Shown here: positions 3,283-44,189 of the stretch, piece after piece
Layout: each line of letters begins with the position of its first letter
How positions within the stretch are numbered: position 1 is the stretch's first letter
DNA from: Helicobacteraceae bacterium
GTDB lineage: Bacteria; Campylobacterota; Campylobacteria; Campylobacterales; Sulfurimonadaceae
Reading direction: 5' to 3'
Length of the DNA stretch: 44,189 nucleotides
Assembly (NCBI GenBank): GCA_021163845.1
Contig: JAGGTH010000075.1
Location: 1 to 44,189, forward strand
Made by a program: the position numbers and the translations under genes
The notes under the pieces: generated by a model
What the model was told of the DNA's origin: nothing
The model's database searches: none
Seen by the model: only the letters and a program-made list of their open reading frames with translations

Positions 3283-4479
3283 ATGCAAAGAAGAGATTTC
3301 TTAAAAGCTTCATTAGCAGCTTCAGCTGTGGCAATAGGTTCCTCAGCTACAGCTGGAGTGACAACACAGCCAATTGACACGAGAAAAGTTTCAACAATAG
3401 CTTTTCCTGAAAAAAAACCACTGATTACTTATTCTGACAGACCGCCACTTTTAGAAACTCCAAGAGAGGCTTTTACACAAGCAATTACACCAAATGATGA
3501 GTTTTTTGTACGTTGGCATATGCCAGAGATTCCAACACACATCGATCCTGATACATATAAGATCAATATTAATGGACTTGTGAAGCAAGAATTACATATT
3601 TCACTTAATGATCTTAAAACAAAATTTGAACAAGTAGAAGTGACTGCCGTGCTTCAGTGTGGAGGAAATAGCCGTTCTGCATATAAGCCAGTTGCAGGTG
3701 GTATCCAATGGGGTAGTGGAGCGATGGGATGTGCAAAATGGAAGGGTGTAAGACTTCGTGATGTACTCAATCGTGCCGGACTTCAAAGAGATGCAGAATG
3801 GATAGGTTTTAATGGGATGGATAATGCAGCCTACTATGAAACGCCAAACTTTATCCGTGAGATGCGTATCGATGAACTTGATGACCATGTGATCTTAGCG
3901 TATGAGATGAATGGGGAGGATCTTCCTTATCTCAATGGCTATCCACTTCGCCTTGTGATCCCTGGAAAATACTCTGATAGCTGGGTAAAGATGCTCAGTA
4001 ATATCACAGTTACAAAAGACTACCAAGAGCTTTTCTTTATGGATGTAGCGTACCGTGTGCCAGATAATGACTGTGAGTGTGAGAGCCCAGATGAGAAGTA
4101 TCCAAGAACAAAACCTATCACAAATATGAATGTAAAATCGGTGATCGGTTGGCCAACAAACAATACTGTTGTGTATCATAACTCTCATCTTGTAGTACGT
4201 GGTGTAGCATTCGATGATGGACATGGGATCAAAGATGTGCTTATCTCAACGGATGATGGTAAATCATGGAAGCCAGCGCTCCTAGACAAAGATGCAAACC
4301 GTTATGCGTTCAGAGCTTTTAGATTCGCGTTCAAACCTAACAAATATGGAAAAGTCAATATCATGGCAAAAGCGATCAACCGCTTAGGCAACGAGCAACC
4401 ATTCGCACATGAGATCAAATGGAACCACGGTGGTTACAAATACAACGGTATCGATGTTGTAACGATAGAAGTGGTATAA
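3283..4479 (+). CDS. sorA: Sulfite:cytochrome c oxidoreductase, molybdopterin subunit (SorA-like)
   Basis: 398 residues of the sulfite oxidase family. The N-terminus MQRRDFLKAS is a twin-arginine signal, so the folded molybdoenzyme is exported to the periplasm. Residues about 70-260 are the oxidoreductase molybdopterin-binding domain. Cys126 in VLQCGGNSRSAY is the expected molybdenum ligand and the nearby Arg is the conserved substrate-site residue. Residues about 275-395 form the Mo-cofactor dimerisation (Ig-like) domain. The next gene is a monohaem cytochrome c, the arrangement seen in Campylobacter jejuni Cj0005c/Cj0004c, where the pair oxidises sulfite and feeds electrons to cytochrome c. 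A SoxC-type role in thiosulfate oxidation is less likely, because no sox genes are adjacent. An AT-rich leader with two TATAAT boxes precedes it. Confidence 0.85.
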   Translation: MQRRDFLKASLAASAVAIGSSATAGVTTQPIDTRKVSTIAFPEKKPLITYSDRPPLLETPREAFTQAITPNDEFFVRWHMPEIPTHIDPDTYKININGLVKQELHISLNDLKTKFEQVEVTAVLQCGGNSRSAYKPVAGGIQWGSGAMGCAKWKGVRLRDVLNRAGLQRDAEWIGFNGMDNAAYYETPNFIREMRIDELDDHVILAYEMNGEDLPYLNGYPLRLVIPGKYSDSWVKMLSNITVTKDYQELFFMDVAYRVPDNDCECESPDEKYPRTKPITNMNVKSVIGWPTNNTVVYHNSHLVVRGVAFDDGHGIKDVLISTDDGKSWKPALLDKDANRYAFRAFRFAFKPNKYGKVNIMAKAINRLGNEQPFAHEIKWNHGGYKYNGIDVVTIEVV

Positions 4480-39632: not shown

Positions 39633-39648
39633 AGTTTGGAAAAACTCT
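39631..39648. terminator. Hairpin between convergent genes
   Basis: AGAGTTT-GGAA-AAACTCT stem (39631-39648) between the outer-membrane protein stop and the chemoreceptor stop. T-rich on the plus side only partly (AATCTTTAT). Possible shared terminator. Confidence 0.45.
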
Positions 39649-40741
39649 AATCTTTATCGTGCAGTATCTCATCTAAGATACTAAAGACATCATCACTTCC
39701 TCTTTCCATCTCTTCAAAGGCACCCACTAATGCTTTGGTATCAACACTCTCTTGAACCATCAGATCAAAGACCTTATGGGTACCGTTGTGTACCGTAGCA
39801 TGCGGTGCTTCTAGTTTTGCATAATGTTTTGTTTTTGAAAAGTTCTCTTTGCCATCGCCTTCATAGTACCATTTGCCTAAGCGACAGTTGTGATGGTCTA
39901 CAAACTTGAACTGCTCCTCTTTCGTCACTGCAGAGTAGTAGGTGTTGACCTTCCATAAGATATGATCGAGCTTTGCAAGCGACATAAAGACACGGTCGTT
40001 GGTAAACTCCATATCTCGAAACGATTCTTTCATCGCTTGTGAATCATGACCAAGGCAGTCGTTGAGTTTGCTGATAAGCTCATTTGACTGACCTACATTG
40101 TTTTGTATCTCATTGAACTGTTCAGACATGCTATCGACATCCTGTTTCATCGATTGCAAAGATATATTGATCTCACTTACGGCTTTGTCTGTTCTATCTG
40201 CAAGTTTTCTCACCTCGTCTGCGACAACGGCAAAGCCTCGCCCGTGTTCTCCTGCACGAGCCGCTTCGATGGCAGCATTGAGCGCGAGAAGGTTCGTTTG
40301 ATCGGAGATATCTTTAATGAGCGCTAAGATACTCGTCACATCGTTTGTTCTCTCAGAGAGCCCCTCTACAGTATGCTTTGAAGTGTCTGAGAGTTCATTG
40401 AGCTTATCTAAGACATTTATTATTTCACTTGTCTTCTCTGTGATGTTTGAGATACTATCAACGAGTTCATTGGTTCTACTGAGATTACTTTTCGCATTCC
40501 CAACAGACTCTGCCATATTCCCTTGAATATCCATAATATTTGCTTTGAGATGCAGGTTTTGCATCTTCATAAGCGCATCAGAAGCACTTGGAATATTTTT
40601 TGAAGAGTTCTCCCGTGCCTTTTGTTCAAGCTCTTCTATAATGTCTTGCAGTCTTTGGTTCTCTTCTTGTAGTATATTTTTTTCAGTTTTTAGTTTTTCG
40701 TACTCTTGTAGCGGTACGCCAGAATCTCCAAATAGCCCCAT
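39647..40741 (-). CDS. Soluble CZB-domain chemoreceptor (TlpD-like)
   Basis: 364 residues from the ATG at 40741, chosen because a near-perfect AAGGAGGG precedes it; an in-frame ATG 42 bp earlier has none. No membrane helix. An N-terminal coiled coil (about 12-55), the methyl-accepting signalling domain with the hairpin tip [29 protein letters not shown], then a CZB zinc-binding domain (about 255-345: [13 protein letters not shown], later His residues in HATVH). This is the architecture of H. pylori TlpD, a cytosolic receptor for oxidants and energy state that uses a Zn-thiolate switch. A TGCAACA element lies upstream of it on the same strand. Confidence 0.9.
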
Positions 40742-40908
40742 AACTCCCTCCTTTTTATCACATAAATTTGATAACAATATCACACATTATGACAAGTTTA
40801 CATCACTTCAGATAAATTAAAGATAAATTTATCTTATAAGAAATAGTTTTTGTCATATTGAGAAGATATTTTAAAATTTTCTTGTCTTTTAAATACGAAA
40901 TACTAAGC

Positions 40909-40932
40909 TTTTAGTGTTGCAAACTTGTTGCA
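40909..40932 (-). promoter_or_regulatory. Paired TGCAACA element facing the TlpD-like gene
   Basis: On the minus strand: TGCAACA-AGTT-TGCAACA-CT-AAAA. Half-sites are 11 bp apart. A TTTAAA that could be a -10 starts 22 bp downstream (40893-40888). The gene start is 167 bp away. Same pattern as 40957-40980 and 44077-44100. Confidence 0.55.
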
Positions 40933-40956
40933 ATTCTCTCCCCTTTCAATGAAAAA

Positions 40957-40980
40957 TGCAACAAAAATGCAACATTAAAG
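40957..40980 (+). promoter_or_regulatory. Paired TGCAACA element upstream of the cetB-like gene
   Basis: TGCAACA-AAAA-TGCAACA-TT-AAAG, half-sites 11 bp apart. The second TGCAAC ends exactly 22 bp before a perfect TATAAT (40996-41001), so it covers the -35 region. Confidence 0.6.
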
Positions 40981-40995
40981 CGTCATACTTTCACC

Positions 40996-41001
40996 TATAA
41001 T
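40996..41001 (+). promoter_or_regulatory. -10 box of the cetB-like operon
   Basis: TATAAT 24 bp before the GTG start at 41026, with an AGGGAGAG ribosome-binding site between. Confidence 0.55.
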
Positions 41002-41025
41002 ATCTTTGAATACAAAGGGAGAGAA

Positions 41026-41514
41026 GTGGCTGGACAAGAACTAAGCTTTGGAGATCATGAATTTATTGTTTCTAAAACTGATACGAAAGGGAATATAACT
41101 TATGGAAATGGTGTGTTTATAAGAATGTCTGGATATACGGAAGAAGAGTTGATAAATGCACCACATAAGATTTTACGTCATCCTAAAATGCCTGCATTTA
41201 TCTTTAAGTTTTTGTGGCAAAGGGTTCGAGCAGGCAAAGAGATCTTTGCTTATGTGGTCAATAGAAATAAAAATGATGACTATTATTGGGTTTTTGCTCA
41301 TGTGACTGCAAGTAGAGATGAAAGTGGAAGAATCATAGGCTACCACTCTGCAAGAAGAAAACCAAAAGCAAAGGCTTTAGAGATCATCAAACCTTTGTAT
41401 GAAACTCTTTTAAGAGCAGAAAAGTCAGGTGGTGTGTCTGCATCTGAAGCGAAACTTCAAGCATTATTAGATGAGAAAGGAGTAAGTTATGACGAATTTA
41501 TCCTCTCTCTCTAA
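41026..41514 (+). CDS. cetB: Aer-type PAS protein (CetB-like energy-taxis sensor)
   Basis: 162 residues beginning at GTG 41026. A single Aer-like PAS domain (about 8-120): [17 protein letters not shown]-type start, ILRHPKMP and [13 protein letters not shown], with a C-terminal helical tail. In C. jejuni CetB binds FAD and passes redox signals to the membrane receptor CetA. The following gene, overlapping by 26 bp, encodes a CetA-like receptor. Compared with E. coli Aer, the RHPDMP motif is RHPKMP (Asp60 to Lys) and the later Trp (Aer W79) is Ile, so cofactor binding may differ. Confidence 0.82.
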
Positions 41515-42931
41515 AATTCAATACTTTAATGTTATCTCTATAGGAATCATCACATTCACTCTTTTATACGAGATCATCACTATGGGATTTAACTGGTTGG
41601 AAATCTTGAATATCGTCAACTATTTGGTAGCTTGGCTCATTTTTATAAATATACGTAAAGCAAGAAAAATTGTCTCTGATGTATCACACGCAATGAGTAA
41701 TGTTGAGAATGGAGTTTTAGAATCAAGGATCGTCAATAATAAGGCGCGAGGGGAGTTTAAAGTTTTATGTGACAACATGAATAATATGTTGGATCAACTC
41801 GAAGTTTATATGAGAGATACTTTTGCTGTTATTGATGCGCTCAGTGAAGATAAATATTATAGAGTGGTTCAAACAAGTGGTTTAAGAGGATTATACAAGC
41901 AAAGTGGTGAAAATATTAATACAAATGTACGTAAAATGAAAGAGCATCATCAGGCATTAGAACTCTCTTTCATAGATGCAGAGCTTTCCACGGTACAACG
42001 CTCAGTAGGTGGTTTGGATGTCATACAAAGAAGTTTGGGCTATTCCATAGAGGAACTTGAACTTATTACCAACATATCAGAAACAACTGCAAAAGAAGCA
42101 AGTGCAACTGTGGCGGATCTCAATATAGTTACAGAAAACCTCAATCAACTCACAGAGATCATTGGGAGTTCAAATGAGGCAGTAAATGCTTTGGGTGTAA
42201 GAGCTAATGAGATCAACTCGGTTGTAGAACTTATCAAAGATATTGCAGAGCAAACGAATCTTTTGGCACTCAATGCTGCTATCGAAGCTGCTCGTGCAGG
42301 GGAACATGGGCGAGGCTTTGCCGTTGTGGCTGACGAGGTGAGAAAGTTAGCTGAAAAAACACAAAGTGCGACAGGTGAGATCTCTATTGCGATACAAGTT
42401 TTACAACAAGATACAGCTTTAGTATGTGAGAGTTCTGAAACTATGAACACACTCTCTACGAAATCAAATGAGATGATACAAAGTTTTACGCAAGTTGTGC
42501 ATAGTTTTAGTGATAACTCTAAAGAAACAGCATGTAGAGTATTAGGAATTGAAAAGTCCTCTTTTGTTACTTTGGCGAAGATAGACCATATTCTTTTTAA
42601 ACAAAAGGCATACAACTCAATCTACAATAAAAAAGTGGAAGATAGTTTTGTGGATCACCATAGTTGCCGTCTAGGAAAGTGGTACGAAACAGGTAAAGGT
42701 AAGGATCAATTTGGAATGACAAAAATGTATCCAATGATCTTAAAACCACATCAAAGTGTACACCAAGAAGCTATAAATGCTGTCACATACTTTAGTGATG
42801 ATATTGATAACCTTATCCAAAAGAAAGAAGATATTATAAGTTCATTTCAAGCGATGGAATCTAACTCACAGCAACTTTTTGAGATTATGGATGAGATGCT
42901 TCGAGAGGCACTTACAAGTAGAAGTTGTTAA
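41489..42931 (+). CDS. cetA: CetA-like membrane chemoreceptor with CZB domain
   Basis: 480 residues. Two membrane helices (about 13-30 and 37-56) with almost no periplasmic loop, so the signal must come from inside, as expected when CetB is the sensor. A HAMP-like region (about 57-110), helical region, methyl-accepting signalling tip ([32 protein letters not shown]), then a CZB zinc domain (about 370-465: [25 protein letters not shown]). The CZB end is close to that of the TlpD-like receptor 0.8 kb away. C. jejuni CetA as I recall it lacks a CZB, so this would be a CetA variant with its own zinc/redox sensor. Confidence 0.82.
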
Positions 42932-42945
42932 AAGGAATGGAGACT

Positions 42946-43299
42946 ATGCTAGATGATGAAAGAGTACTTTTTGAAAAAGGTGTATTAGAGATCTTTCCTC
43001 TTGCAACAGTGGTCTTGGATGATTCGAAAATAGTTGCTTGTAATGCTCTTTTTAAGGACTTAACACACGGCTATTTTGAACATGGCGATATATTTGAAAA
43101 TGCTTTTGTCAATAAAATAGGATACATCTATATTGATCCCATATTTGACTGGAAGCATGATGTTATGGAGTTTTATGAAACAAATAAAATCCTTTTAAAG
43201 TTAGGGAGGGTGCAAAAAGAGTTCTTTGTTCATGTTCATCGAATTCATACAAGCACTTATTATGTGGTAAGTCTCTCAGAATTGGTTCATTATAAATAA
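42946..43299 (+). CDS. Small PAS-like protein (DWK-domain)
   Basis: 117 residues from the ATG at 42946, preceded by AAGGAATGGAG. Earlier in-frame starts (ATG 42937, TTG 42925) sit on or before the ribosome-binding site. No known family beyond a PAS-like beginning (FPLATVVLDDSKIVACNALFKDL). The whole protein is homologous to residues about 150-250 of the next gene product: shared elements are PL-x-V/A, CN/VN-x2-F-K, EN-x-F, GYI, DWK, NK-x-L and a C-terminal V-S-L-S. 14 bp after the CetA-like gene, so part of the same operon; possibly a soluble partner of the receptor. Confidence 0.65.
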   Translation: MLDDERVLFEKGVLEIFPLATVVLDDSKIVACNALFKDLTHGYFEHGDIFENAFVNKIGYIYIDPIFDWKHDVMEFYETNKILLKLGRVQKEFFVHVHRIHTSTYYVVSLSELVHYK

Positions 43300-43309
43300 A
43301 AGGAAAAAA

Positions 43310-44065
43310 ATGAAAGAAGATTTTACTCAAAGGCAGATACTAGAGGAATATAAAAAGATTGTAGACAGCAGTTATATTGTTACTGAAACAGATCTACGAG
43401 GTGTTATTACTTATGTCAATGAAACGTTTGTACGTATTTCAGGCTATTCTAGAGAAGAGCTTCTTGGGAAACCTCACAATATTGTCAGAGATCCAAATGT
43501 ACCTAAAGAGACATTTAAAGAGATGTGGCAAACGATAAAGAGTAAGAAGAGGTGGAAGGGAATCCTTCCAAATAGGGCTAAAAATGGAAAGCGATATATC
43601 GTAGATGTCACTATCGCTCCGATCTTGGATCATGATGGTGCCATCATAAAATATATCGCTTTTAGAACAGATATCACACAGCTCTTAGCGCAAAAACAAC
43701 AAGAACTAAGTTTGAGTGTTCAAAAAGCTTTACTGATAAATCAAGAAGATCTGCTTGCTACGATTCCATTACCATCAGCGATAGTAAATGAGGATTCTAC
43801 ACTTCTTTATGTCAATAAGACATTTAAACAATTTTTTGAGCAAAAAATGAGTCAGGATGATTGTCTTGAAAACTATTTTATAGACAAAGAGGGCTATATT
43901 TCTCAAGGACAAATAATAGATTGGAAGAGTTGCGAGTTAGATATCTGTTCTATTTTTAATAAAAAAGTACTTATAAAAGTTCATGGACATGAACAAGAGT
44001 TTTTACTTCATACAAAAATGCTCGAAGAAGAGAAGTTTATTGTTTCTTTATCCCCTTTGGCATGA
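43310..44065 (+). CDS. Aer-type PAS plus DWK-domain protein (CetC-like candidate)
   Basis: 251 residues, soluble. An N-terminal Aer-like PAS (about 12-130: VTETDLRGVITYVNETFVRISGYSREELLGKPH, then IVRDPNVP and a conserved Trp) and a second domain (about 150-251) homologous to the small protein encoded just upstream. No signalling output domain. In C. jejuni a third PAS protein, CetC, works with CetA and CetB; position and PAS type make this a candidate, but the extra domain is not something I recognise from CetC. The RHPD motif is altered to RDPN. AAAGGAAAAA lies before the ATG; 10 bp after the previous gene. Confidence 0.7.
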   Translation: MKEDFTQRQILEEYKKIVDSSYIVTETDLRGVITYVNETFVRISGYSREELLGKPHNIVRDPNVPKETFKEMWQTIKSKKRWKGILPNRAKNGKRYIVDVTIAPILDHDGAIIKYIAFRTDITQLLAQKQQELSLSVQKALLINQEDLLATIPLPSAIVNEDSTLLYVNKTFKQFFEQKMSQDDCLENYFIDKEGYISQGQIIDWKSCELDICSIFNKKVLIKVHGHEQEFLLHTKMLEEEKFIVSLSPLA

Positions 44066-44076
44066 ATATAATAAAA

Positions 44077-44100
44077 TGCAACACTTTTGCAACACTAAAG
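44077..44100 (+). promoter_or_regulatory. Paired TGCAACA element upstream of the gene at 44141
   Basis: TGCAACA-CTTT-TGCAACA-CT-AAAG, half-sites 11 bp apart, 40 bp before the ATG at 44141. A weak -10 (TTAAAT, 44114-44119) lies about 20 bp downstream. It starts a new transcription unit right after the cet-like operon. Confidence 0.55.
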
Positions 44101-44140
44101 GATTAAACTTGTTTTAAATGAAGTTAAAAGGTGTTATATA

Positions 44141-44189
44141 ATGGAAAAAACACAAAAAGAATTTTTTGTAAAACAACAACATCTGTTAT
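44141..44189 (+). CDS. Start of an unidentified gene, cut by window end
   Basis: An ATG behind AAAAGGTGTTATA opens a frame to the window end (16 codons: MEKTQKEFFVKQ...). Too little to identify. The TGCAACA element in front suggests it belongs with the taxis genes. Confidence 0.5.
   Translation, partial: MEKTQKEFFVKQQHLL

Follow-up and report, generated by a model that had tools for sequence, protein, structure and literature searches.

The best-described relative of the promoter element analyzed here is the pho box of E. coli, where PhoB binds two 11-bp direct repeats of seven conserved and four loose bases each (PMC2648988) at a strict spacing from the core promoter (PMC10294691). Our locus shares the 11-bp repeat plan, the strict core-promoter spacing, a box in place of the -35 element and a candidate regulator of the OmpR/PhoB type, whereas its half-site is TGCAACA rather than the CTGTCAT of the pho box and its targets are sensory rather than phosphate genes. 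Searching the literature for TGCAACA together with response regulators gave one likely case from Campylobacterota, PceP (RR2) of Sulfurospirillum, whose stated consensus, CTATW-N17-CTATW (PMC7755780), differs from our box; the remaining titles dealt with different organisms or subjects. PceP is likewise an OmpR-family protein; its site overlaps the -35 element at one promoter, and it is a predicted activator of its own transcription. However, it regulates tetrachloroethene respiration, and we rejected an identity of the two sites since their sequences differ.

Two further systems resemble the genes of the locus. A PAS protein beside a methyl-accepting chemotaxis protein (MCP), and a soluble MCP with a CZB domain, recall CetA/CetB and TlpD of Campylobacter and Helicobacter, a likeness by domains only; the literature searched held no such box or regulator for CetA/CetB and TlpD. 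A FIST protein that neighbors a histidine kinase and has GGDEF/EAL response regulators close by recalls NosP-NahK nitric-oxide signaling, and this FIST protein is not NosP by the model NF041558 (26.8 bits versus a cut-off of 450). We found no earlier report of the box in the literature searched, a body of work with subscription papers mostly outside it, and neither this switch nor its set of genes seems to have been described before. The operator and regulon of a new response regulator are well supported; their proposed mechanism is an ordinary, PhoB-like one, and what is new is their identity. For environmental Campylobacterota, a group with few regulons described in detail, the analysis thus supplies an operator, a promoter layout and a named candidate regulator of sensory genes.

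Three boxes and their promoters

The window, meaning the whole stretch of 44,189 nucleotides that was analyzed, is the entire contig C8 of a 2.24-Mb genome, and contig C38, discussed below, comes from the same genome. The features of the window are as follows.

39647-40783, minus strand: TlpD-like soluble chemoreceptor (MCPsignal and CZB domains, by Pfam)
40900-40905, minus strand: -10 of box B, TAGTAT (reading from 40905 to 40900), at the fixed spacing
40915-40932, minus strand: box B, TGCAACAAGTTTGCAACA, exact match, promoter of the divergent TlpD-like MCP-CZB gene
40957-40974, plus strand: box A, TGCAACAAAAATGCAACA, exact match, promoter of the PAS-MCP operon
40984-40989, plus strand: -10 of box A, CATACT, 9 nt past the box at the fixed spacing
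41026-41514, plus strand: CetB-like PAS-domain protein (by Pfam)
41489-42931, plus strand: CetA-like chemoreceptor (MCPsignal and CZB domains, by Pfam)
42925-43299, plus strand: small protein of the box A operon, no match in family searches
43310-44065, plus strand: PAS-domain protein, last gene of the box A operon (by Pfam)
44077-44094, plus strand: box C, TGCAACACTTTTGCAACA, exact match, promoter of the gene starting at 44141
44104-44109, plus strand: -10 of box C, TAAACT, at the fixed spacing
44141-44189, plus strand: gene cut by the contig end, first 16 codons, placed by the position of box C and the gene order in G048

Translation of the TlpD-like gene probably begins at the ATG at 40741, which follows a GGAGG.

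The three boxes are exact and lie where an earlier note on this DNA had placed them, and the 18 fixed positions it described, the TGCAACA-N4-TGCAACA cores plus [C/T]T-AAA, hold in all of them. Re-examination gave the same half-site distance as that note, with the two TGCAACA direct repeats 11 bp apart and on one face of the helix. Under Markov models of order 1 to 3, exact TGCAACA-N4-TGCAACA sites were expected 0.0006-0.0009 times (~0.0007) in the window and 0.03-0.05 times in the 2.24-Mb genome, as against three exact and four one-mismatch promoter sites found in this genome with 0.03 exact sites expected. A genome-wide search allowing two mismatches returned no exact paired copy beyond boxes A to C, which extends to the whole genome what the earlier note had said of the window. 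It returned eight one-mismatch copies, four of which lie on C38 within 10.3 kb and in promoter position, each 39-42 bp ahead of a start codon.

From loci in genomes that carry sites we collected 67 distinct exact copies, a set in which the -10 was not a selection criterion. A NANNNT hexamer stood 9 nt after the second half-site in 67/67 of them, with A at position 2 and T at position 6, and TANNNT stood at this spacing in 45/67. No other spacing came close to these frequencies. The consensus over sites is T-TGCAACA-nA(C/T)T-TGCAACA-CTAA-N5-TATAAT, and the resulting 33-bp pattern of box plus -10 offers a means of searching further genomes for the regulon. At the FIST promoter on C38 the spacing is off by one base, with TATAAT at 10 nt. 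Sites orthologous to box A were found in G031, G048, two Sulfuricurvum loci (L142 and L147) and a Lake Pavin relative (L159), and its CATACT recurs in G031 and G048. Because the -10 is kept at all 67 carrier sites and missing at spacing 9 from each of the six isolated exact matches found in relatives that lack the candidate regulator, we read the box as replacing the -35 element of activated promoters. The fixed spacing also favors the earlier suggestion that an activator would occupy the -35 region.

The -10 assigned to box A by the earlier note was a different one, a perfect TATAAT at 40996-41001, 22 bp on. It is off the family spacing, and we rejected it as the shared -10 in favor of the CATACT at 40984, since TANNNT at that distance is near background (7/67 sites, versus 45/67 at spacing 9). 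In G031 and G048 the orthologous promoters contain this TATAAT too, and it possibly marks a second transcription start.

We weighed three other accounts of the boxes against these data. Chance or a simple repeat as the source of the three copies has a negligible probability; nothing in its support was found, and the site census, with ~0.0007 sites expected in the window, refutes it, as does a promoter architecture conserved across genera. Boxes A to C are real promoter switches. Their position at -35 and the fixed spacing to the -10 would also suit an alternative sigma factor that recognizes the box as a -35-like element; however, the -10 is of the ordinary TATAAT type, direct repeats phased at 11 bp are typical for dimers of response regulators, and matching turned up no sigma factor gene in the cluster, which makes this account very unlikely. 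Slightly less remote, yet still quite improbable, is that the regulator acts on the boxes as a repressor that blocks polymerase. Overlap with the -35 region is a possible repressor position too, but no -35 consensus remains beneath the box, and strictly fixed spacing to the -10, as documented for PhoB (PMC10294691), is a need of activators rather than repressors.

A candidate regulator on contig C38

No regulator gene was found inside the window, and the candidate was reached on C38 by way of the one-mismatch sites. The relevant features of this contig are as follows.

C38, all on one strand, in order: propeller (start cut), receiver, [box] MCP-CZB, [box] FIST, histidine kinase, receiver-GGDEF-EAL, receiver-kinase
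C38, continued: [box] P0001, second receiver-GGDEF-EAL, small kinase, [box] 98-aa protein
C38 10385-11065: P0001, OmpR/PhoB-family response regulator (receiver and Trans_reg_C domains)

Sequence profiles settle the fold of P0001. Its receiver matches Response_reg (E 4e-24), with the phospho-acceptor Asp D51 and K101 invariant in 23 orthologues; its C-terminal winged helix matches Trans_reg_C (E 3e-14), and the full-length profile matches solved OmpR-type regulators. Against the PhoB equivalog model TIGR02154 it scored 76.6 bits, far below the cut-off of 296.2. No other protein of the cluster matched a DNA-binding domain, and kinase genes adjoin the P0001 gene. The recognition-helix region, TIRSLVNR, is identical in the 23 orthologues. 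In 19/24 P0001 orthologues a box with its -10 lies 39-45 bp ahead of the orthologue's start codon, and nearly all of these boxes fall within the 3' end of the kinase gene that precedes it; the five without such a box are L141, L144, L149, L159 and G134.

C38 is likely to continue the right end of the window, and the gene at 44141 is likely to be the start of a WD40-type propeller protein, with its body at C38:2-2059 (locus L031) and box C as its promoter. We judge both likely because similar genes are contiguous in G048 and G031 (box, PAS, MCP, box, large propeller-related protein, several genes, box, P0001), with the G048 order reading PAS, MCP, box, propeller, receiver, and because the C38 and G048 propellers are related (21% over 547 residues, E 6e-23). 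The earlier note had placed each site ahead of a taxis unit, which stands for the PAS/MCP operon and the TlpD-like gene but probably not for the gene at 44141. WD40-type propeller proteins recur behind boxes in several species.

Distribution of the box and P0001 across genomes

Orthologues of P0001 were called at ≥59% identity, below which the next homologues drop clearly to ~45%. The 11-bp phased repeat of the box tracks the presence of the P0001 gene. In the genus, 9/135 genomes carry P0001, and exact sites occurred in 9/9 carriers versus 10/126 non-carriers (Fisher p 3e-9, a value that ignores shared ancestry). At the level of the order (399 genomes), 12/13 carriers versus 11/386 non-carriers had a box together with its -10 (p 6e-16, which ignores shared ancestry in the same way), with no carriers outside the family. 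The named relatives with the module are mainly Sulfuricurvum and Sulfurimonas genomes, and copies are dispersed in some genomes, with 27 exact sites in G133 and 12 in G040.

We conclude from these sequence comparisons that the boxes are very probably bound by one response regulator encoded in the same cluster, P0001. The competing idea is that the binding protein is another transcription factor whose gene accompanies that of P0001, or else a paralogous response regulator found genus-wide (~44% identical). It has in its favor four genus genomes (G127, G099, G132 and G131) with 2-13 exact sites and no P0001 at the threshold used, and the fact that the paralogue is of the same family, with a related recognition helix, TIRAEINR. 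Two of these assemblies, G127 and G131, are 74% and 79% complete, and the box-bearing contig of G099 ends within the kinase operon, ahead of the expected place of the regulator; G132, at 99% complete, is an exception to the co-occurrence, with box loci near-identical to those of G063. Yet the paralogue is present in most site-free genomes, so it leaves the distribution of sites unexplained, and the cluster showed no DNA-binding protein other than P0001, which has a box before its own gene. We therefore give this idea a small chance, higher than that of the sigma factor or the repressor, and retain P0001 as the candidate.

The genus-wide paralogue is represented by G000:C94:5448-6101, which is 44% identical to P0001, and its helix mostly reads TIRAEINR or TIRAEVNR. 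Single perfect-looking boxes with a -10 also occur in other families of the order, in genomes without P0001 (G183:C1:1331637-1331669 and G155:C137:10596-10628), and perhaps reflect related regulators.

Proposed mechanism and regulon content

The box is, with high probability, the operator of a class II activated promoter of the sigma-70 type, to which a P0001 dimer would bind and switch on a sensory regulon. The parts of this model that rest on sequence are the boxes, the fixed -10, the co-occurrence, the autoregulatory box and the gene content. The two half-sites, 11 bp apart and ending 9 nt before the -10, would stand in for the -35 element. P0001 would bind as a dimer once phosphorylated by the cluster kinases, presumably the REC-kinase encoded just upstream and the FIST-linked kinase, and the bound protein would recruit RNA polymerase, which is activation rather than repression. 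By switching on its own gene it would set up positive feedback; its further targets would be the PAS/MCP operon, the TlpD-like receptor, the WD40 protein, the MCP-CZB receptor and the FIST-kinase-GGDEF/EAL operon. The FIST, PAS and CZB domains hint that the signal may be a small molecule, nitric oxide or redox state. We lean toward the broader view that, in the Sulfurimonas/Sulfuricurvum family, a new response regulator controls a dedicated sensory regulon that amplifies itself and in which chemoreceptors, kinases, FIST and c-di-GMP enzymes are turned on together as whole sets. If this is true, the taxis repertoire itself would be under one two-component switch, with the promoter at 27 places in one species, and the model predicts two-component control of chemoreceptor sets.

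The genes directly behind 84 boxes, a tally taken from loci mostly around the regulator and so weighted toward the cluster, were mostly sensory and encoded receiver (26), kinase ATPase (15), PAS (15), MCP (8), CZB (7), WD40-like propeller (~8) and NIT (3) domains, and Trans_reg_C in 15/84, which is the regulator itself. Among 38 control genes of the window's genome there were two kinase, two PAS and one MCP. The box does lie before PAS, MCP and CZB genes, where the earlier note had proposed to look for it. In all, the regulon would take in PAS proteins, chemoreceptors with CZB domains, histidine kinases, WD40 propellers and proteins of the FIST and GGDEF/EAL kinds. What had been called a small redox/energy-taxis regulon is right about an operator before taxis genes and too narrow about the rest, a broader signaling set with kinases, c-di-GMP enzymes, FIST and WD40 proteins.

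Conservation at orthologous genes, also proposed as a check, was found where they are cluster-linked (G031, G048 and several Sulfuricurvum) but not at unlinked homologues. The examined unlinked PAS homologues had no box, whether or not the genome held P0001, and neither did the examined unlinked TlpD-like homologues, carriers included; the exception is the cluster-linked homologue in G133, beside the regulator gene, which has a box (L152) as box B does. We rejected a genus-wide taxis regulon on these grounds, and the regulon is an accessory, mostly local, cluster-linked module in Sulfurimonas/Sulfuricurvum.

A few targets are not obviously sensory, namely a POTRA-domain protein, DUF3373 in an operon and a phosphonate-type binding protein. 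At L241, L238, L229 and L094, boxes precede a small exported-looking protein (~85 aa) followed by a larger one (DUF3373 in L241). At L245 (G127:C151), two near-identical box promoters at 3346 and 3597 lie 251 bp apart, which suggests a local duplication of the promoter.
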